From IMG/VR virus record IMGVR_UViG_3300048833_000186, positions 1 through 41,647 of that record: a stretch of 41,647 nt of DNA; one strand, given 5' to 3'. The position numbers and the translations under genes are program-made. The stretch is from a virus. The notes beneath the pieces were generated by a model. The model was not told the DNA's origin and did no database searches. It was given only the letters and a program-made list of their open reading frames with translations. This document shows, one piece after another, positions 50-41,568 of the stretch. Position 1 is the stretch's first letter. Each line of letters starts with the position of its first letter.

Positions 50-125
50 GGGCTGTTAGCTCAGTTGGTAGAGCAGTTGACTCTTAATCAATAGGTCGAA
101 GGTTCGAATCCTTCACAGCCCACCA
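50..125 (+). tRNA. tRNA-Lys (anticodon CUU), integration target
   Basis: The sequence folds as a full 76-nt cloverleaf. The acceptor stem pairs GGGCTGT (50-56) with ACAGCCC (115-121), followed by discriminator A and an encoded CCA (122-125). The anticodon stem GTTGA/TCAAT closes the loop CTCTTAA, whose anticodon CUU reads the lysine codon AAG. The T-arm is CCTTC/GAAGG around TTCGAAT. The 3' part from 78 onward is the phage attachment core, so integration rebuilds a complete tRNA gene at the left junction. A terminator that follows at once belongs to phage DNA. Confidence 0.97.
78..125. repeat. attL: attL core (48-bp direct repeat)
   Basis: Positions 78-125 are identical to 41521-41568 over 48 bases; identity stops on both sides at T78 and A125. 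The repeat covers the anticodon loop through the CCA end of the tRNA-Lys gene. A perfect repeat of a tRNA 3' end with an integrase gene just inside one copy is the classic signature of a tyrosine-recombinase prophage. The 5' half of the tRNA exists only at this left copy. Confidence 0.96.
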
Positions 126-194: not shown

Positions 195-1346
195 TCACGG
201 CATATCCGATGGTTTCACGACGGCCAGGCTGTGGTCATAGACCTTCATCATGGCTTCGGTGACGCCTAGGGCTTGTTGCTTGTCGGCCTTGGTGCCGGCG
301 GTGTCGGTGCCGCCCTTGCGCTTGAGGTCGTGCAGGCTGAATCGCTGCTCAAGCGTGATTACGTTGTGCAGCACGCAGCTGGCGATGAGCCGCTGCCAGG
401 CGCTGTCCAGCCCGGACTTAGTCAACGGCTCGCCGTCTTCGCTAATGACCAGGAAGCGGTGCTCAGGGCGCAACTGCTCGGGCATGCCACGGCGCTTGAT
501 GACGGCAGAGCGGTTAGCCAGCAGGGCATCCCACGCGGCCCGCAGGCGGGGCGACCACTCCACGATGTTGTTCTGGCTGCCTTTGCGGCGGTCGGTGCGC
601 AGGCCGGCGGGTTCGCCCTGGGCTTCCACCAGCGTGTTGGTCTCGATGCCGCGCAGGCGGCACAGGTAGCCAATTTCAGCCACGGCCCACAGGTAGGCGG
701 GCACGGAGCCCTTGCTGTGCGCCTTGAGGCCGGCACCGTGGCGTGCATAAGCCACGACGGCGGCGTACACGTCCGGTGGTGGCAGGCGCCGGCGGCTGCG
801 CTCCTTGGCCTGCAGGATGCCCCGTGCGGGGTTGTCCTTGATGCCCAGGTGCGGCCCGGCCCATTTGTAGACGCCGCGAAGGTAGCGCAGTACGTGGTTG
901 GCCTTGGACGGGGTGCCCTGCCTGACGATTTTTTCGTGCATGGCCTGCACGTTGGGCTGGGCCAGCCGGTTGGCGACCAGTGCGCCGACTTTGATACCCA
1001 GCTTGGTGGGGAAGTCTTCTACTACCTTGCGGCAGACGTCGTAGTCGCGGCGGGTCGCTTTGGCCAGGCCCTTGAAGTGGGTGCTGTCGTGGAAGCGATC
1101 GAGCATCCAGGCGACGGTGCCGTGGGTGGGGCCGCCTTTGCCTTCCTCGACAAATCGATGCAGATCTGAGTTGCGGGCGCCGGCGCCAGCGATGGTTTCG
1201 CGAGCGGGTTTGCCTTCCTTGGTTACGAACACAAACCAGCGACCGTTGCCGGATGGATCCCAGTAGACGCCAGCCGGCAAAGACGCCTGGTCAATGTGGC
1301 CCGGAATGCTGGGGTTGTGCTTACGGATGCGGCCGCGTGGTGCCAT
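195..1346 (-). CDS. int: phage integrase, tyrosine recombinase
   Basis: This 383-residue protein should catalyse site-specific integration and excision at the tRNA-Lys att site. The C-terminal half carries the tyrosine recombinase residues: an Arg in YLCRLRGIE (about residue 230), a His-box written HDLKRKGGTD (about 342), and the nucleophile candidate in MKVYDHSL (about 369). The His-box reads HxxK where most relatives have HxxR, with an Arg directly after it. The N-terminal region, with a small basic domain and a core-binding helical domain (about 75-185), is of usual length. The gene is last in the leftward operon, overlaps the preceding gene by one base (TGATG), and lies 70 bases from attL. 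Confidence 0.93.
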   Translation of the reverse strand: MAPRGRIRKHNPSIPGHIDQASLPAGVYWDPSGNGRWFVFVTKEGKPARETIAGAGARNSDLHRFVEEGKGGPTHGTVAWMLDRFHDSTHFKGLAKATRRDYDVCRKVVEDFPTKLGIKVGALVANRLAQPNVQAMHEKIVRQGTPSKANHVLRYLRGVYKWAGPHLGIKDNPARGILQAKERSRRRLPPPDVYAAVVAYARHGAGLKAHSKGSVPAYLWAVAEIGYLCRLRGIETNTLVEAQGEPAGLRTDRRKGSQNNIVEWSPRLRAAWDALLANRSAVIKRRGMPEQLRPEHRFLVISEDGEPLTKSGLDSAWQRLIASCVLHNVITLEQRFSLHDLKRKGGTDTAGTKADKQQALGVTEAMMKVYDHSLAVVKPSDMP

Positions 1347-3863: not shown

Positions 3864-4804
3864 GCGGTGGCCAGCTCGTGAGTGCGCGGGACCTTGAAAC
3901 CAGCGGCATTGGCATGCCCGCCGCCGCCGTAGCTCGCGGCGATATGGCTGACATCCATCCCGCCTTCCGCCGAACGAAGACCAAACTGACGGCCATCAGG
4001 TAGATCCCAGTAACAGGCGGCGAATGCTTCGCCCTGTGCCATCAGGTGGCCTGCATCGCTCACCAGCGTGTAGGGCAGGCTGGCTACCGGCACGTCGTGG
4101 CCTGCAATCACCATGCGCCGCTTGCAGACCTTCACCAGCTCAGCTACGTCCTTGTGGTGCTTTCGCTCAATGGCCGCGCCTTCGGTGCGCAGGTCCTCCA
4201 CATCTGTTGCTGCCAGGCGATCCCACAGCGCAAAGCTGTATTCATGGCTGAAGACGGCGGCCTGAATCTCTCGCGTTCCGGGAAGTGCGAAACGCCACAG
4301 GTCACGATCTTCTACGTGGTTGACCAATGCAGGGCGCGGCTTGTTCGGATTGAAGAAATCCCAGGCGATGCCGGCGCCGCTGCGCTGCATGTCGAAGTAG
4401 GCATAGATGATGGCCTTGCGGATGCCTTCGTACTGGTCCTGAATAACGCAGCCCTGCACGTAATCCCATGTGCGCGGGGCTGTCCACCCATGCCCGTCCA
4501 TGCGCAGCACGGTTGCGAATTCCTCGCCGGTCCTGCTTTCGTTGGGCAGGTCTTCGGCCGCGCTCTTGTGGTGATCGAGCACAAGAATTGAGCGCGCTTT
4601 GAGTGACAGCTCACGCAGCACGTCGCGCTTATAGCTGAAGTCCAGAAGCACAACATCCCGGCCGGTCACGTCGGGCGGCGTCGCCTGATAGATGCCTGGG
4701 TAATAGGTGGCACCATCGCCAAAATACTTCCGCGCTGCCCATGCGGCCGTGAATCCATCGGCGCAATTTCCGTGATAGATCACCAGTACATTTTCGTGGC
4801 TCAT
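3860..4804 (-). CDS. DHH-family phosphoesterase
   Basis: This 314-residue protein belongs to the DHH superfamily of Mn-dependent phosphoesterases (RecJ, NrnA and c-di-AMP hydrolase relatives). Motifs are visible in order: YHGNCADGF near the N terminus, VVLLDF, the family-naming DHH in ILVLDHHKSA, NHVEDRDLWRF, and the DHHA1 glycine-rich end YGGGGHANAAGF. The likely activity is cleavage of short nucleic acids or cyclic dinucleotides; the substrate is unknown. I chose the ATG at 4804 because it overlaps the upstream stop (ATGA). An in-frame ATG at 4834 would invade the preceding gene. Confidence 0.88.
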   Translation of the reverse strand: MSHENVLVIYHGNCADGFTAAWAARKYFGDGATYYPGIYQATPPDVTGRDVVLLDFSYKRDVLRELSLKARSILVLDHHKSAAEDLPNESRTGEEFATVLRMDGHGWTAPRTWDYVQGCVIQDQYEGIRKAIIYAYFDMQRSGAGIAWDFFNPNKPRPALVNHVEDRDLWRFALPGTREIQAAVFSHEYSFALWDRLAATDVEDLRTEGAAIERKHHKDVAELVKVCKRRMVIAGHDVPVASLPYTLVSDAGHLMAQGEAFAACYWDLPDGRQFGLRSAEGGMDVSHIAASYGGGGHANAAGFKVPRTHELATA

Positions 4805-6456
4805 TTCGCCACCTCCGCTTCGCCGCGTAGGCATTCCGGCAGGTAGTTGGTGCTGGCCAGCATCTCTGCCGCCTTGGGTACCAACTCCGATTTCTTCAGC
4901 TTGCCCAGCGCCTCGAGATCGGCGTCGACGGCGGCGTTGGCTTCACGCAGGATGCGCAGGATCGCGGCACGGCTGAGCGTGGCCAGCCATTCGCCGGTGG
5001 GCGCCCAGTGCGATCGCATATCGATCATGGCCAGCGCCTGGAACTGATCAGCCGTATCCGACGGCGAGTCCACCACGATGGTCTGCGCAACAAGGAACGC
5101 CAGCAGGCGAAGTAGCGTGCCGGTGTCCTGTTCCAGCAGGTAATTGAACAGATCCGGCTGTGCCTGCAGTCGCTCGGTCCACTGGGTTTCCAGCGCTTCG
5201 TTGTTGATGCCCGAAGCTAGCGCCTCGCGGAACCCCTTGATCTGATCCGCCTCGTTGAGCGTGGCGCGGCCATGCACTTTTACAATGCCGGTGCCGCCGT
5301 AGATGCCCAGCTGGTCCTCGACGAACTCTGCAATCAGTGCGGCCAACATGATGTGCGGCTTGTGTGCGAGCTCTGCCCGTAGAATCGCCGTTCGCCAACC
5401 CAGCAGGCGGTTGACCTGCGGCTTGCTGAGTTCGTCGTTGACGGGTGCCGGTGGCGCGGGTTGGCCAGGCTGCTGCGCCGCTGCGACCTCGAGGCCGGCT
5501 TCCACGCGCTTGCGATCGCCTGGGCGCACGTAGGCATCACTGACTTCTGGCTTGCCGTTGTGGCCGATGGTGACGAACACGCCGGCCACGGTCTTGTCTT
5601 CTGCGGTCGGGTGGCGCAGGCATTCCAGCTTGCTGGTGGTGCTGTAGGGCAGGTCCAAACGGCACTCGACCCATGCCCACCCTTTCTTGCGCTCTTTGAC
5701 TGCCGTGCGCTCCAGCTTTTCCAGCGCCAGGCTTTCGACCAGCAGGTGGTCGTGCAGGAACACTTCGTCACCGAACAGGTCGCGATGCAGCGCACCGCCG
5801 GCGGCCTCGTATGCTTCCACGGTGATGAACTTCGCGACTTTGCTGACACCGTAGACGGTATCGTCGGTCAGGGCTGCGCGAAGGTCATCGGGGTCGTTGT
5901 CGAAGTCACCGGATTGTTCCCACACGTGCTCCTGTTTAGCGTGGTCGGTGGTGACGGTCAGGGCCTTCACCTGGTCGAGCCGGATCTCGTCCTTGCGAAG
6001 CAGGTCGAGGATCTTCGGCGACACCGTGCCCAGACGCAGCATGCCATTGACGTGGCGCTCGCTCTGGCCGAATCGCACGGCAATGTCGGTGACGGAGCGC
6101 CCTGCATTGATGAGCGCAGTGTAGGCCGCGATTTCATCGGCCGGGTTCATGGCTTCGCGGATGGTGTTTTCAGCTGTGCTGGCATCCATGGCCACGGCTT
6201 CGTCCACCACGCGACACGGTGCCTCGTAGTCGGTAGCCAAGTGGCCGGACTTCACCAGCGATTGCAATGCGCGCAAGCGCCGACCGCCAGCGACGACGTC
6301 GAACTTTCCCTTCTTGGCCTTCACCACGGTGAGGTTCTGCAGCAAGCCGTCGGCCTCGATGGAGGCGATGAGATCGGCGACGTTCTCGCCGCCGGTTTTG
6401 CGTGCGTTGAGCGTGCTCAGCTGCAGGCTGGCCAGCGGGATAGTTTGGATTGTCAT
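4801..6456 (-). CDS. large ParB/RepB-like DNA-binding protein
   Basis: This 551-residue protein has a ParB N-terminal domain (IPLASLQLSTLNARK ... VVAGGRRLRALQSL), with GGRR in place of the usual GERR. A helical HTH segment follows (RSVTDIAVRFGQSERHVNGMLRLG, about 118-141). The middle and C-terminal parts (about 330-530) are long and helical without a recognised domain. Large ParB-like proteins of this type are common on plasmids and prophages. It is the second ParB-like gene in this operon and the divergent GGRR box hints at altered nucleotide use. The start overlaps the reverse-transcriptase stop. Confidence 0.8.
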   Translation of the reverse strand: MTIQTIPLASLQLSTLNARKTGGENVADLIASIEADGLLQNLTVVKAKKGKFDVVAGGRRLRALQSLVKSGHLATDYEAPCRVVDEAVAMDASTAENTIREAMNPADEIAAYTALINAGRSVTDIAVRFGQSERHVNGMLRLGTVSPKILDLLRKDEIRLDQVKALTVTTDHAKQEHVWEQSGDFDNDPDDLRAALTDDTVYGVSKVAKFITVEAYEAAGGALHRDLFGDEVFLHDHLLVESLALEKLERTAVKERKKGWAWVECRLDLPYSTTSKLECLRHPTAEDKTVAGVFVTIGHNGKPEVSDAYVRPGDRKRVEAGLEVAAAQQPGQPAPPAPVNDELSKPQVNRLLGWRTAILRAELAHKPHIMLAALIAEFVEDQLGIYGGTGIVKVHGRATLNEADQIKGFREALASGINNEALETQWTERLQAQPDLFNYLLEQDTGTLLRLLAFLVAQTIVVDSPSDTADQFQALAMIDMRSHWAPTGEWLATLSRAAILRILREANAAVDADLEALGKLKKSELVPKAAEMLASTNYLPECLRGEAEVAK

Positions 6457-7808
6457 GGTGTGCAGCTCCTATAGGGAATGGAAATGCGCCTGCCTTCCAG
6501 GCGGTGAGAGAAGCGCCGCGGGAGTGCGGCGGCGGTGATCCAGGGGAAGCGAGTGCGCAGCGCCTGTTGCAGGCGGTGGCTGTTGGCGTGGCGCAGGTGG
6601 CCGTGGTAGCTGGCAATGACGCTGCCGATGCGTCGGAAGTCCTTTGGCGTGCCGTGCAGCTCGCCTGGACGCACGTGCGCGCGTTCCCATGCCTGCAGGG
6701 TCTCGCGTGCATGCACCAGCACGCGGCGGCGTGCAAGCGTGTGCGTGGGGTGGATGACGTAGCCGAGGAAGTCGATGCCGTCGCCCAATGGGCGCAGCTT
6801 GATGTCGGCCTTCAACGCCAGGCGCAGGCGTGTGTGCAGGAACAGCTCGATGCGCGCCTGCCAACTGGCCAGCTGCTCGCGATCGTGGTGCACCAGCACG
6901 AAGTCATCGACATAGCGCAGGTAGCGCGTGGCCTTGAGCTCGTGCTTGACGAACTGGTCCAGCGCGTCCAGGTAGACATTGGCGAAGAACTGGCTGGACA
7001 GGTTGCCGATGGGCAGGCCGAACCCGGCCGGCGCGTTGCTGAGGCGTTTGTGTGCTGGCACCGCGGCCAGTTCCTCTGGCGTGGCGCGCAGATCCACGCC
7101 GGCGCGCACCGGGTCACGGCGCAGCAGCGCATGCGTGACGTGCTGGGCCTCGGCGCTGATGCCGGCACGCTGCAGGGTGGGCTTTAGCTGTGCCCACAGC
7201 GTGGGCCGGTGGATGCTGTTGAAGAAGTTGGCGATATCGAGCTGCAGGTAGTAGCCGCCACCTTGGCCGCTGTGTACCTGGCGCACGAACGCCTGCAGCC
7301 TGCGCACGGCGGCATGGCTGCCCTTGCCGACACGGTTGGCGTAGCTGTCGTGGATGAAGCGCGGTTCGTACAGTGCCTCCAGCTGCGGCACCAGCCAGTG
7401 GTGCACGACGCGATCGGCGAAGTCCGGTGCGTGGATCTCGCGCGCCTTGGGGCGGGTGGCGATAAAGCAGGTGGAGCGACGTGGTGCCCAGGTGTTGCTC
7501 TGGATCTGCGCCTGCAGTAGCAGCAGCCCGTCCATCCAGCGGCTGTCGAAGCGCAGCTGGTTGTGGCTGGGCACCTTCTGCCGGCGCGCATGACGCCAGG
7601 CACGGTAAAGCGATTGCAGCGGCACGGCCCCCTGAAACTCACTGGCACGACGCACGGCCAACGCGAACCCGTTGTTGTTGCGGTGGTTGTTGTTGACGTT
7701 GCCGTTGTTGAAATTGACGTTCCACGCGGACGCCGAAGACCAGGCAGCCGCTTCCCCGCGCTCTTGCGACCCAGCCGCACATCCGTGTTGGTAGCGTGGC
7801 GTCGTCAT
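6453..7808 (-). CDS. DGR reverse transcriptase, N terminus encoded by the template repeat
   Basis: This is the retroelement polymerase that would copy the TR RNA into mutagenised cDNA. RT motifs are clear: YLQLDIANFFNSI (motif A Asp), GLPIGNLSSQFFANVYLD (the IGNxxSQ signature shared by DGR and group II-like RTs), and YLRYVDDFVLVHHD with the catalytic YVDD. The frame from the ATG at 7808, which overlaps the avd stop (ATGA), is 451 residues long. Its residues 20-56 are the translated TR. A GTG at 7625, just before LQSLYRAWRHARRQK, would give a usual-length RT of about 390 residues starting after the TR. Which start is used cannot be decided here. Confidence 0.93.
   Translation of the reverse strand: MTTPRYQHGCAAGSQERGEAAAWSSASAWNVNFNNGNVNNNHRNNNGFALAVRRASEFQGAVPLQSLYRAWRHARRQKVPSHNQLRFDSRWMDGLLLLQAQIQSNTWAPRRSTCFIATRPKAREIHAPDFADRVVHHWLVPQLEALYEPRFIHDSYANRVGKGSHAAVRRLQAFVRQVHSGQGGGYYLQLDIANFFNSIHRPTLWAQLKPTLQRAGISAEAQHVTHALLRRDPVRAGVDLRATPEELAAVPAHKRLSNAPAGFGLPIGNLSSQFFANVYLDALDQFVKHELKATRYLRYVDDFVLVHHDREQLASWQARIELFLHTRLRLALKADIKLRPLGDGIDFLGYVIHPTHTLARRRVLVHARETLQAWERAHVRPGELHGTPKDFRRIGSVIASYHGHLRHANSHRLQQALRTRFPWITAAALPRRFSHRLEGRRISIPYRSCTP
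7641..7750 (-). repeat. DGR template repeat (TR), 110 bp
   Basis: On the minus strand this segment begins CGGCTGCCTGG, an adenine-free 29-base stretch. A core with eleven AAY codons plus one CAC follows, and it ends in a 30-base conserved GC-rich segment finishing GTGCCAGT. The core translates as NVNFNNGNVNNNHRNNN. The AAC-rich coding is typical of DGR templates because adenine changes give many residues and no stops. It aligns to VRs at 8278-8384 and 8734-8843, with all substitutions at its adenines. Confidence 0.96.
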
Positions 7809-8248
7809 TGGTTGGCCCCCGTGGAGGCGGCGCAGGTACTCAGTTTCTTGCCACGCTGCACGACGGCATTGCTGCCTGATGCACTCTGGGCATTGGGGGT
7901 ATCGAACTTCTTGCACCAGCCACCGGCCTGAGAGCCCAGTTCATAGGCGACGCGGGCCAATGCTTCGAACTGGCGAAAGCTTTGGAATGCATGCAGCAGC
8001 TTCGCTACCTGCATGTATTGCTTGAGCGCATCCACTTCCCACTTCAACTGCTTCACCCATCGCTGCTGATGGGAGCGGTCCTGCCAGGCGCGATTGGAAA
8101 GGTTGTAAACCTTCATGGCCTGAGTCCGCAGATCACTGCCAATCTTGTGGCGGTGGTACTGCGGAAACGACCTGACGGCGTTCTCAATATCAACGAGAAG
8201 CCGTTCGGCCGTCTTGACGATAGGTGGCAGCTGGAAGCGTGAGGGCAT
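7805..8248 (-). CDS. avd: Avd-like DGR accessory variability determinant
   Basis: This 147-residue protein is predicted almost wholly helical and basic over its first 110 residues. Segments such as PPIVKTAERLLVDIENAV, HRHKIGSDLRTQAMKVYNL and VDALKQYMQVAKLLHAF match the four-helix bundle of the Avd/23S-IVP protein family. Avd binds the DGR reverse transcriptase and TR RNA and is needed for cDNA priming in the Bordetella phage system. The C-terminal 35 residues are low in complexity. It lies between the first target gene and the RT, the usual place, and its stop overlaps the RT frame's ATG. No clear ribosome site precedes it. Confidence 0.88.
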   Translation of the reverse strand: MPSRFQLPPIVKTAERLLVDIENAVRSFPQYHRHKIGSDLRTQAMKVYNLSNRAWQDRSHQQRWVKQLKWEVDALKQYMQVAKLLHAFQSFRQFEALARVAYELGSQAGGWCKKFDTPNAQSASGSNAVVQRGKKLSTCAASTGANQ

Positions 8249-8271
8249 GATGAGATCAGCAGAGAGTCAAA

Positions 8272-8694
8272 TTACTGACTGGCACGACGCACGGCCAACG
8301 CGAACCCGACGCTGCGGTGGTAGCTGCTGACGAGGCCGCCGTCGAAACCGACGTACCACGCGGACGCCGAAGACCAGGCAGCCGGCGTCTTCGACCAGTA
8401 CCAATCGCTCTGGATGTTGGTGAAGAAGTCGGTGTTGATGGCCGGTTGGTAGCGCGTGCGATCGATGAGCAACTGCAGCTCTTCGATGGTGGGCAGATCC
8501 CAGTCGGTTTTGCCCAGCAGGTCGAGTGCGCTGGCACGCGCCTGCAGGTCTTCCTGGGACTCTTCTTCTTCGTTGATCTGGGTGGCGGTGAACTGCAGGC
8601 CAAGGCCCGCGACTTCAACGGCAACCCACTCGGTGGCGTCATTCGGCAAGGGCTGGCCGTCTGCGCCGATTTTGATAAGGGTGATGGGTGACAT
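8272..8694 (-). CDS. DGR target protein 1, DUF1566/C-type-lectin-like
   Basis: This 140-residue protein ends in the variable repeat. The C-terminal 80 residues have the DUF1566/Lcl pattern: DWDLPTIEELQLLID, a WYWSKTPAAWSSASAW segment and the closing GFALAVRRASQ. DGR targets display the variable residues on a lectin-like fold that binds diverse ligands. The variable positions here read Y, G, D, G, L, S, S, Y, S, V. I chose the ATG at 8694 because AGGAG lies seven bases upstream. No signal peptide or tail-attachment domain is visible, so location and partner are unknown. Confidence 0.9.
   Translation of the reverse strand: MSPITLIKIGADGQPLPNDATEWVAVEVAGLGLQFTATQINEEEESQEDLQARASALDLLGKTDWDLPTIEELQLLIDRTRYQPAINTDFFTNIQSDWYWSKTPAAWSSASAWYVGFDGGLVSSYHRSVGFALAVRRASQ
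8278..8384 (-). repeat. DGR variable repeat 1 (VR1), 107 bp
   Basis: This segment matches the TR over its whole length except for 14 substitutions and a three-base (one-codon) deletion within the TR's triple AAC run. On the coding strand all 14 substitutions sit where the TR has adenine, for example AAC to TAC, GGC, CTC, AGC and GTC, or AAT to GGT. No non-adenine TR base is changed. The shared 5' and 3' flanks (29 and 30 bases) are perfect. Confidence 0.96.
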
Positions 8695-8727
8695 GGTGAT
8701 GCTCCTGTTGGTGATCAAAGAGGCCAA

Positions 8728-9300
8728 TTACTGACTGGCACGACGCACGGCCAACGCGAACCCGTCGTTGTCGCGGGGGCCGTCGTAGACGCTGCCGAGG
8801 CCGAAATAGACGCTCCACGCGGACGCCGAAGACCAGGCAGCCGGTGTGCTGGTCCAGTGCCAACGCGGCTTCACGTGCGGGAAGAGATTCGTATCGATCG
8901 CCGGTTCGTGACGCGTGTCGTCGACCAGTGCAGCGAGTTCGGTGCGGGTGGGCAAACGCCAGTCGTCGTAGCCCAGCAGTCGCAGCTGCTTGCAGCGTTC
9001 GATGCAGTGTTCCTGGGTGATGCCGTCGTTTTCGTCGGCAGGGTCGCCAAGGGATGCAACGGACCACATGAGGCCGGTGCTGTGATCGATGACGGCATGA
9101 TGATCGGTGCGATCGCTGTCGGAGGGCAGGTGCAGGCCTTCGGCAGTGACCTTGGTGAAGCCGCTGGCCACGGCGTTGCCGACCTTGGTTGCGGTGAAGT
9201 CGATGGTCGGTTCGGGCAGAGCCTTGCTGATGCTGGCGGGCAGGCTGGCTAGTTGCGTTGCGAGCAAGTTGCCTGCCACATGGATGGTGATGTGGGTCAT
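8728..9300 (-). CDS. DGR target protein 2, DUF1566 domain
   Basis: This 190-residue protein has a DUF1566 domain from about residue 60: HAVIDHSTGLMWSVAS, YDDWRLPTRTELAALVDD, IDTNLFPHV, WHWTSTPAAWSSASAW, then the variable segment and GFALAVRRASQ. The lectin-like fold would present the variable residues S, Y, G, L, S, Y, D, G, P, D, N and D. AGGAG precedes the ATG at 9300 with good spacing. The N-terminal 55 residues are not recognised and lack a signal peptide. It is a paralogue of the shorter target next to it. Two targets beside one TR mean one template can diversify both. Confidence 0.92.
   Translation of the reverse strand: MTHITIHVAGNLLATQLASLPASISKALPEPTIDFTATKVGNAVASGFTKVTAEGLHLPSDSDRTDHHAVIDHSTGLMWSVASLGDPADENDGITQEHCIERCKQLRLLGYDDWRLPTRTELAALVDDTRHEPAIDTNLFPHVKPRWHWTSTPAAWSSASAWSVYFGLGSVYDGPRDNDGFALAVRRASQ
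8734..8843 (-). repeat. DGR variable repeat 2 (VR2), 110 bp
   Basis: It has the same length as the TR with 14 substitutions, all at TR adenines on the coding strand (for example AAC to AGC, CTC, TAC, GAC and GGC; AAT to TAT; CAC to CCC). One AAC of the final triple is unchanged. It differs from VR1 at most variable positions, so the two genes were mutated in separate events. Confidence 0.96.
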
Positions 9301-9326
9301 GGTGGTTCTCCTGGTGTGGTGCGGGG

Positions 9327-9698
9327 TTATTCGTCGGAGTCGTCGTCGATTTCGTCGGCGGCGTGGACGGGGAGAGCGCGGCGTTGTGTTGCGGATTTGA
9401 ACTGGCCGCGGTTGCTGCTGTTGATGGTGAAGGTGTCGCGATAGTCGCCATTGAGCGGGCGCGAGGTTTCGTGTGCGTCGAGCTTCTGCACCTTGCCGCC
9501 GTTTGCTTCGAATGCAGCGATGTCTGCAGCGATCCTTTCGCTTTCCAGGCGCTTAGCGGCCATGTACGCGCCGCCGTGTGCATTCGCGGCTGTGAGTCGT
9601 TGCGTGTTGATCGCCTTGGTGACCAGCACCGCGGTGTGCGTCGCCTTCACTTCACGGGTTGGTTTGCCCATGGCGGCGCGTTTTGCTTTGGCCGTCAT
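9327..9698 (-). CDS. hypothetical basic protein upstream of the DGR
   Basis: The product is 123 residues starting MTAKAKRAAMGK; the ATG overlaps the upstream stop (ATGA at 9695-9698). The N terminus is rich in Lys and Arg and the C terminus is acidic (DEIDDDSDE). The middle looks helical (AKRLESERIAADIAAFEANGG). No family is recognised. It lies 26 bases before the second DGR target gene, in the same transcript. Confidence 0.65.
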   Translation of the reverse strand: MTAKAKRAAMGKPTREVKATHTAVLVTKAINTQRLTAANAHGGAYMAAKRLESERIAADIAAFEANGGKVQKLDAHETSRPLNGDYRDTFTINSSNRGQFKSATQRRALPVHAADEIDDDSDE

Positions 9699-10213
9699 GC
9701 GTCGCACCCTGGGCCGCGCTCGCCCACGCTGCCGGGCTTGGTGAAGCGCATGAAGTGGACCCAGCCTCGGTCGGGGCAGTGGAAGCCCCAGTCGCGGACG
9801 CGAGGGCCGGTGATGAAGAGGGTCCAGCAGGGGTCTTTACCTTGGCGTGGATCGTCCTCGGTATTGAATAGCTCTATGCGGTGTGCACGGCTTGGCAAGC
9901 TGATTTTGAGGCTGCCAGCTTCACGGATAGTGCGACGGTGAATTCCGCCGGCATCAATGGTGCATTCGATGTATTCGCCGCGCAGCAGCAGGCTTGCCCA
10001 CGCCCAGGGGTGGTCGTGTAGGGCGCGGTCGTCGTCGTCGCGCAGAAAGTGGTGCAGGTAGACGTTGCACACCGGGTTGCGTGGCAGCAGATACCAGCGG
10101 CGAAGGTACGCGCCTTGTGGATCTTCGGCACCCACGACGAAATTGGGTGGACGTTTGGCGGCGACGCGCTGCACGAGTTGGGTGAAGATGAAGTTGGCGA
10201 AAGTGCGGCTCAC
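9695..10213 (-). CDS. cupin-like phage protein
   Basis: This 172-residue protein has a cupin-type beta-barrel signature: YLHHFLRDDDDRALHDHPWAW, then LLLRGEYIECTID, and a later RAHRIELF. The histidines in LHDHPW and AHRIE could form a metal site. Similar 'WYLLPRN ... HHFLR ... HDHPW' proteins are common in phages, with no proven activity. It is translationally coupled on both sides by four-base overlaps. Confidence 0.65.
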   Translation of the reverse strand: MSRTFANFIFTQLVQRVAAKRPPNFVVGAEDPQGAYLRRWYLLPRNPVCNVYLHHFLRDDDDRALHDHPWAWASLLLRGEYIECTIDAGGIHRRTIREAGSLKISLPSRAHRIELFNTEDDPRQGKDPCWTLFITGPRVRDWGFHCPDRGWVHFMRFTKPGSVGERGPGCDA

Positions 10214-10488
10214 TTGCTGTCCGCCTTTGCCAGTTCATTGGCTTCGCGCACGCCTGCATCGGTCAACGTAATGCAGGTGGGAAATTCTGGCGTGTCGTAC
10301 GCAACCAGTCCGGCGTTTTCCAGCCGGTTGAGCGTGCGGATGGTGAATGCCTGGTACAGCACGGGGCCGCTGGTGCGGATGGGTGCGCCGGTCGCGATGT
10401 AGCCGCCGCAGGCACGACGCAGGCTGCGTGAGGGTGTGCGGTACGCGGCGAGCAACGCGTCGCGCATCTTGGGTTGCAGTTCTGGCAT
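10210..10488 (-). CDS. hypothetical protein, possible winged-helix
   Basis: This 92-residue protein starts MPELQPKMRDALLAAY. The stretch FTIRTLNRLENAGLVAYD followed by CITLTDAGVREANEL resembles the recognition helix and wing of winged-helix DNA-binding proteins (a 'leaf-turn' LTDAG). A nucleic-acid role in the early operon is plausible but unproven. Confidence 0.6.
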   Translation of the reverse strand: MPELQPKMRDALLAAYRTPSRSLRRACGGYIATGAPIRTSGPVLYQAFTIRTLNRLENAGLVAYDTPEFPTCITLTDAGVREANELAKADSK

Positions 10489-10489
10489 T

Positions 10490-10660
10490 TCAGGCTCCGG
10501 GAACGCTGGCTGCGGCCAGCACGAGAAGGGACAGCAACACGACGGCCGCCCAGCCGAGAGCGGCAGGCAGCGGGTTGCGTTTGCGGGGAGTGCGACGGCC
10601 GGGCGTGGTGGCGTGGATGCTTTCCATCACGCCCTGGCTGAGCATGTGATCGACGCTCAT
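10490..10660 (-). CDS. small single-pass membrane protein
   Basis: The product is 56 residues starting MSVDHMLSQG; the ATG overlaps the stop of the 30-residue gene upstream. A basic stretch (GRRTPRKRN) is followed by one C-terminal hydrophobic helix (AALGWAAVVLLSLLVLAAASV). The expected topology is N-in with a C-terminal anchor. Function is unknown. Confidence 0.55.
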   Translation of the reverse strand: MSVDHMLSQGVMESIHATTPGRRTPRKRNPLPAALGWAAVVLLSLLVLAAASVPGA

Positions 10661-41520: not shown

Positions 41521-41568
41521 TGACTCTTAATCAATAGGTCGAAGGTTCGAATCCTTCACAGCCCACCA
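41521..41568. repeat. attR: attR core (48-bp direct repeat)
   Basis: The segment is identical to 78-125. It carries only the anticodon loop to CCA part of tRNA-Lys, without the 5' half, so it is a remnant and not a second tRNA gene. Host sequence resumes after 41568. Confidence 0.96.

Follow-up and report, generated by a model that had tools for sequence, protein, structure and literature searches.

The DNA analysed here, referred to as the window, is a single virus sequence of 41,647 bases (IMG/VR record IMGVR_UViG_3300048833_000186). It carries a diversity-generating retroelement (DGR) that consists of a reverse transcriptase (RT) gene, the gene avd, one template repeat (TR) and two target genes, each ending in a variable repeat (VR). 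Judged by these components, the element is a genuine DGR of a known kind; its variant part is a TR that appears to be translated as part of the RT, together with a previously uncatalogued template fold on the 5' side that would close the TR into a loop. The cassette comprises the following features.

8728-9300, minus strand: target gene 2, 190 amino acids, Lcl_C (DUF1566), with VR2 at its 3' end
8734-8843, minus strand: VR2, 110 nt, with 14 substitutions at A and a gapless alignment to the TR
8716-8733, minus strand: VR2 3' flank, conserved, CAGTAATTGGCCTCTTTG
8272-8694, minus strand: target gene 1, 140 amino acids, Lcl_C (DUF1566), with VR1 at its 3' end
8278-8384, minus strand: VR1, 107 nt, with 14 substitutions at A and a 3-nt deletion
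8260-8277, minus strand: VR1 3' flank, conserved, CAGTAATTTGACTCTCTG
7805-8248, minus strand: avd, 147 amino acids, its stop overlapping the RT ATG (ATGA)
6453-7808, minus strand: DGR reverse transcriptase, 451 amino acids from the ATG at 7808-7806, with YVDD at 6903-6914
7641-7750, minus strand: TR, 110 nt with 24 adenines, in frame within the RT gene

The RT contains the catalytic and clade motifs YVDD and IGNLSSQ, matches phrog_1423 (2e-93) and has its best PDB match in the bRT of phage BPP-1, in sequence (8ub7, 3e-35) as well as in predicted fold. Avd matches phrog_3206 (1.6e-15) as well as PF22296 (bAvd; 2.7e-7, but at 31.5 bits, under the cut-off of 40). The original prediction that an Avd-like gene and a YVDD RT complete the cassette is therefore borne out by profile matches, with the catalytic residues of the RT intact. 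Likewise, the two genes described as DUF1566-like with a VR at the 3' end both match the Lcl_C domain (2e-19, 3e-26) and have the VR at the C-terminal end of the protein. By this match the targets are C-type-lectin-like; a sequence search of the PDB returned no match for either protein.

Alignment of the TR with the VRs returned all three repeats at the positions first proposed, on the minus strand. The changes relative to the TR are nine A>G, three A>T and two A>C in VR2, and nine A>G, four A>T and one A>C in VR1, and the chance of all 14 substitutions landing on A is 1.1e-11 for VR2 and 2.6e-12 for VR1. The claim that 28/28 substitutions fall on TR adenines thus stands, whereas the claim that the repeats differ only at adenines overlooked the 3-nt deletion in VR1, which removes one AAC unit from the AAC run at TR 7673-7680 and keeps the frame. 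The identity between TR and VR reaches the final base of the TR and then breaks (G7640 beside the TR, C beside the VR). Translated in the target frame the TR reads AAWSSASAWNVNFNNGNVNNNHRNNNGFALAVRRAS, with its adenines mostly within AAY codons, as is usual for DGRs. A search of the whole record for the TR gave three copies only (TR, VR1 and VR2) and no additional one. Nearly every VR in the window and its relatives is followed by a conserved linear 3' flank (family consensus ~CAGTRATTkGrCYTTTTTG), and a stable GC-rich hairpin with a GRNA loop, of the BPP-1 type, was looked for immediately downstream of the VRs, both in the window and in the relatives, and was absent.

The ATG of the RT at 7808 lies upstream of the TR and overlaps the avd stop, and the frame that it opens reads through the TR in the VR frame. 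This arrangement at the avd stop recurs in 51/51 relatives examined, one of which has GTG in place of ATG, and nearly all of them begin with the conserved start MTxPRYxxGCAxGSQ, followed by the TR-encoded stretch and then the RT. Between the ATG and the RT core, 12 different distances occur among relatives, ranging from 174 to 222 nt and all divisible by three. Only ~15 nt separate the TR from the RT core, and codon periodicity resumes directly after the TR. Furthermore, 13 relatives have no ATG, GTG or TTG between the TR and the RT core, and three (L037, L039 and L043; L numbers denote the loci compared) have no start codon from the TR start onward. The other relatives read the TR in the VR frame; the TR of L015 is read in a shifted frame that returns after the TR, so that the ATG and the RT are in phase. 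Before the TR, changes show a third-position excess (54, 66 and 98 by codon position) and a modest purifying signal (omega ~0.62). This anatomy across relatives indicates that translation of the RT begins at the ATG overlapping the avd stop and proceeds through the TR. The open RT frame through the TR was discarded as proof of translation in its own right, given that BPP-1, too, has an RT frame open at this place.

Codon periodicity in avd fades ~90 nt before the gene end while conservation rises, and hairpins with compensatory changes are present in the alignment of this 3' end. The helices of the predicted fold are as follows.

7850-7891, minus strand: P0/P1 hairpin in the avd 3' end (P0 7889-7891/7850-7852; P1 7879-7883/7857-7861)
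7842-7847, minus strand: P3 5' strand, GAAACU, within the 3' end of avd
7755-7836, minus strand: P4 (7830-7836/7755-7761), enclosing P2 and P5
7825-7828/7815-7818, minus strand: P2, holding the likely RT ribosome-binding site
7790-7806/7768-7784, minus strand: P5, including bases of the RT start
7634-7639, minus strand: P3 3' strand, AGUUUC, one nt past the TR and inside the RT gene

Along the transcript the order is P0/P1, the P3 5' strand, P4 with P2, the RT start and P5 inside it, the TR, the P3 3' strand and the RT. P4 ends 4 nt before the TR and the P3 3' strand starts 1 nt after it, so that the TR forms a loop between two helices. GAnACU, a motif at the 3' end of avd, is the complement of AGUnUC after the TR, and the two pair fully in 40/41 relatives; the variable position is occupied by AU, CG, GC, UA or UG, and L042 shows a double exchange. 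The residue that the variable base of P3 specifies (Phe, Cys, Ser, Tyr or Asn) tracks the pairing and not a protein constraint. RNAalifold recovered P3 unaided from the through-TR alignment, together with P0, P1, P2, P4 and P5. Across 46 sequences, the whole fold (36 pairs) is 97.2% formed; double-change cells number 146, versus 31.7 in shuffled alignments, and the covariation score is 0.339, versus 0.137 for shuffled alignments and no more than 0.101 for slid ones. P3 alone is 99.6% formed and has 20 double-change cells against 4.1. Parsimony on the RT tree gave nine compensatory events in P3, 34 in P4, 26 in P1 and 16 in P5. A covariance-model search located further loci in Xanthomonadaceae genomes, and P3 pairing was present in 9/9 of these later loci, two of which have pair sets outside the first 41 (GAUACU/AGUAUC and GGAACU/AGUUCC). 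Rfam families, including RF03022 and RF03018 (to E=1), gave no match at 5000-10500. Comparison supports a conserved fold in the avd-TR-RT transcript, with P3 closing the TR into a loop.

The RNA model also matches distant DGRs in which the TR is non-coding, namely L081 (E = 7e-8) and, more weakly, L094, L087 and L083. In these distant DGRs the element is joined to the 3' boundary of the TR by helices such as GUCACU/AGUGAC, AUUCACU/AGUGAAU, CAUCAUU/AAUGAUG and GAUCACU/AGUGAUC, and the P3 3' strand lies within ~2 nt of the TR end although the RT start is elsewhere, after the TR. Because the strand keeps its place next to the TR end and the position of the RT start varies, a role in templating is favoured over translation control. 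This bears on the possibility that the element is an ordinary BPP-1-like DGR, with a non-coding TR, an RT that starts at GTG 7625 and a fold that only regulates avd/RT translation. Such a reading would accommodate the RT start and likely ribosome-binding site inside the fold, the presence of that GTG after the TR, the BPP-1 RT frame that is likewise open through the TR and unused, and the disorder predicted for RT residues 1-62. It is unlikely, as the 13 relatives without a start codon after the TR, and the three without any from the TR start, could not use this route, and the tie between the P3 3' strand and the TR end in distant DGRs would be needless for translation control.

A comparable arrangement is found in the Rfam family RT-15 (RF03018; Pseudomonas, Burkholderia phage Magia and Shewanella phage vB_Sb_QDWS), which has a structured RNA directly 5' of the TR that overlaps the avd end, a pairing with the TR 3' end (AUCUG/CAGAU) and an RT frame open across the TR. 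However, its helices are different, its TR is read in another frame and the window has no RF03018 match; the window element appears to be related to RT-15 by analogy only. In the cases examined (L138, L142, L101, L049, L157, L165 and others), RT-15 sat immediately upstream of a DGR TR, and in RT-15 phages an unpaired AUCUG of RT-15 complements CAGAU at the end of the TR. This pairing is partly invariant and covaries chiefly at a single further position; the support that these sequences give it is moderate (outer positions, p = 0.015). The Rfam model stops short of the TR and so omits the helix to the TR end. RT-15 probably functions as a DGR template RNA. A search of 369 Gammaproteobacteria with RF03018 gave no matches, and was uninformative since the controls were silent too.

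The TR could also be kept in frame because the N-terminal peptide of the RT that it encodes has a protein function, for example in Avd binding. The conserved start and in-frame indels, as well as the modest purifying signal before the TR, would be expected of such a peptide. However, RT residues 1-62, which comprise the leader and the TR-encoded part, are predicted to be disordered (pLDDT ~33, with high confidence thereafter), and on this model the leader is probably an unstructured tail. Furthermore, L015 reads the TR in the other frame with the ATG/RT phase kept, RT-15-type DGRs are open across the TR in a different frame, and the pre-TR conservation coincides with P5 pairing. A protein function of the peptide is thus distinctly unlikely; a functional N-terminal domain was rejected in view of the disordered model and of the frame not being kept in L015.

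Activity of the element was assessed among relatives. When 92 VRs of 50 related phages were compared with their own TRs, adenines were changed at 1278/2126 positions and other bases at 13/7686, so that non-adenine VR differences in other strains, which would have spoken against the original prediction, are scarce. The adenine changes comprise 747 to G, 376 to T and 155 to C. At non-A positions where the TRs of two phages differ, the VR carries the base of its own TR in 5887/5888 comparisons, which are non-independent. Since each VR follows its own TR at these sites, information kept flowing from TR to VR during phage divergence. Near-identical phage pairs with differing VRs numbered zero among the first 136 loci; one pair was found later, through the target gene. 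It consists of L004, a close relative of the window with 88% DNA identity across the cassette, and L236. The two contigs are identical over 2473 bp, including VR2, and then show 12 differences in VR1, all at TR adenines (P ~8e-10). L236 ends 95 bp after these differences, in VR2 flank; at 2474-2678 of this contig the VR2 flank continues after VR1, which represents either a chimeric contig end or a tandem copy of the target gene. The adenine-only pattern stands whichever way this end arose. Mutagenic homing is suggested by these sister contigs, and their VR1 differences, together with VRs that follow their own TR, make the recent activity that had been proposed likely. Extra VRs were observed 3-5.5 kb upstream of the RT in L073, L074, L075, L077, L031, L038 and L042; such distant VRs lie mostly in small Lcl_C-like genes, and the window has none.

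The same data bear on whether the DGR is decaying and non-working, with VRs fixed long ago, as the 3-nt deletion in VR1 and the missing BPP-1-type hairpin after the VR might indicate. This is very unlikely: the RT, Avd, TR and targets are intact, and non-A VR positions track each phage's own TR family-wide. In addition, the VR1 deletion is in frame, and the hairpin is missing in every family member and hence is not a sign of decay.

Comparison with BPP-1 (mtd/avd/TR/brt; 8ub7-8ubf) shows which parts of the element are conventional. The RT fold, Avd, the adenine-specific transfer from TR to VR and the gene order target-avd-TR-RT are shared. In BPP-1, a spacer 3' of the TR recruits RT-Avd and a spacer adenine primes cDNA at the TR end, while a motif at the avd 3' end stops copying (PMC12875486); a GRNA-loop hairpin after the VR is also required (PMC3240598). 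RF03022 (Phage_DGR) matches BPP-1 3' of the TR. In contrast to this structured 3' spacer, the window has 15 nt after the TR, which leaves no room for a BPP-1-like spacer, and the fold lies on the 5' side; a linear conserved VR flank stands in place of the post-VR hairpin; and the RT frame, open but unused through the BPP-1 TR, makes use of the TR. The original likening to BPP-1 is therefore correct in kind, but not for the RNA anatomy, with the TR in the RT frame and both the 3' spacer RNA and the VR hairpin absent. The DGR of Vibrio phage VP58.5 (gp20, L143) is similar in that its RT reading frame starts before the TR and the TR lies in a VR-like peptide frame, whereas its RT is distant (32%) and its TR-to-RT distance longer. 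The deposited RT genes of VP58.5 and Burkholderia phage Magia also contain the TR. In retron msr-msd RNA a long-range a1/a2 helix closes a loop that holds the copied segment. This RNA is a single transcript (PMC8867640). The likeness to the window is in topology only and not in homology, as retrons have no TR/VR pair and no adenine mutagenesis.

Overall, an intact, probably working phage DGR with a translated TR and a TR-closing 5' fold is, with considerable confidence, the best explanation. In the proposed mechanism, RT and Avd would reverse-transcribe the TR RNA, making errors at adenines, and the resulting cDNA would take the place of VR1 or VR2 in one of the two small Lcl_C target genes, at its 3' end. 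The 5' fold would substitute for the BPP-1 3' spacer by recruiting RT-Avd and positioning the primer at the TR 3' end: P3 would carry the fold to this end for priming, and P4 would bound the TR on its 5' side, possibly marking the stop of copying. Because the RT start and the likely ribosome-binding site lie in P2/P5, one RNA could not be read by ribosomes and serve as a folded template simultaneously; through coupling to avd translation, RT would preferentially be made, leaving idle transcripts as templates. We infer these roles in recruitment, priming, stopping and switching for the 5' fold.

Several observations speak against this explanation. The window has a GTG (7625) after the TR and TTG/GTG codons within it that are possible RT starts. 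The codon-position test before the TR is confounded by RNA pairing, because the P5 helix occupies this stretch. When the window RNA is folded alone, the probability of P3 is ~0.25 and that of P4 is 0.06; the fold thus rests on comparison, and proteins may be needed for it to form. Finally, L236 terminates in a VR-to-VR jump, possibly a chimeric contig end. As regards generality, it is an evenly balanced question whether the translated TR and its fold represent a second class of DGR template RNA, with a 5' recruiting/priming module, a TR closed into a loop and an RT-coding template, to which RT-15 would belong by the same plan with different helices. In such a class each transcript would either make RT, through the TR, or serve as a template, and for this we see equal grounds for belief and doubt.

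The DGR was originally described as prophage-borne with one TR and two targets, and this is upheld by the fold and sequence of the RT, by Avd, by the adenine-only substitutions and by complete att sites. The cassette lies inside a complete integrated prophage of ~41.4 kb with short host flanks, as deduced from exact 48-bp tRNA-Lys repeats at both ends and an integrase.

78-125, plus strand: attL, a 48-bp exact repeat corresponding to the 3' part of tRNA-Lys, with its partner attR at 41521-41568
195-1346, minus strand: integrase, by gene match

Repressor, primase, terminase, portal, head and tape-measure matches were also found, and by these the prophage is a temperate, siphophage-like element. 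The gene order in the DGR operon, which lies on the strand opposite the tail genes, is target 2, target 1, avd, RT and a ParB-like gene. The ATG of the ParB-like gene (4801-6456) overlaps the RT stop by 4 nt (6453-6456), the second stop/start overlap of the operon, and a cysteine dioxygenase-like phage gene (phrog_4786) is situated upstream of the operon at 9695-10213. The nearest relatives are phages from metagenomes and prophages of Stenotrophomonas, Xanthomonas and further members of the Lysobacterales, and the host probably belongs to this order. A search of named phages with the first 25 kb of the prophage brought up no close relative, and neither did one for the RNA element.

A translated TR with a TR-closing 5' fold was not found described in the searchable literature, the coverage of which is incomplete, so that priority is uncertain. 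An overlap between the TR and the annotated RT reading frame was recorded in 2012 for group 3 of a survey (PMC3521204), and that group resembles the window in having a TR that extends over the 5' portion of the RT frame. In its relevant section the survey takes the overlap from annotation, judges the arrangement irrelevant to mechanism and contains no test of translation or RNA pairing. Knowledge of DGR copying stems almost wholly from BPP-1, with its recruiting and priming spacer after the TR. The TR-closing helix offers DGRs without such a spacer a specific mechanism, open to experiment, by which copying could begin and end, and it gives the Rfam family RT-15 a likely function. The finding also supplies a covariance model for locating template RNAs, and it is relevant to DGR-based protein diversification tools that use designed minimal template RNAs. 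Furthermore, the fold suggests a simple switch between RT production and target mutation.

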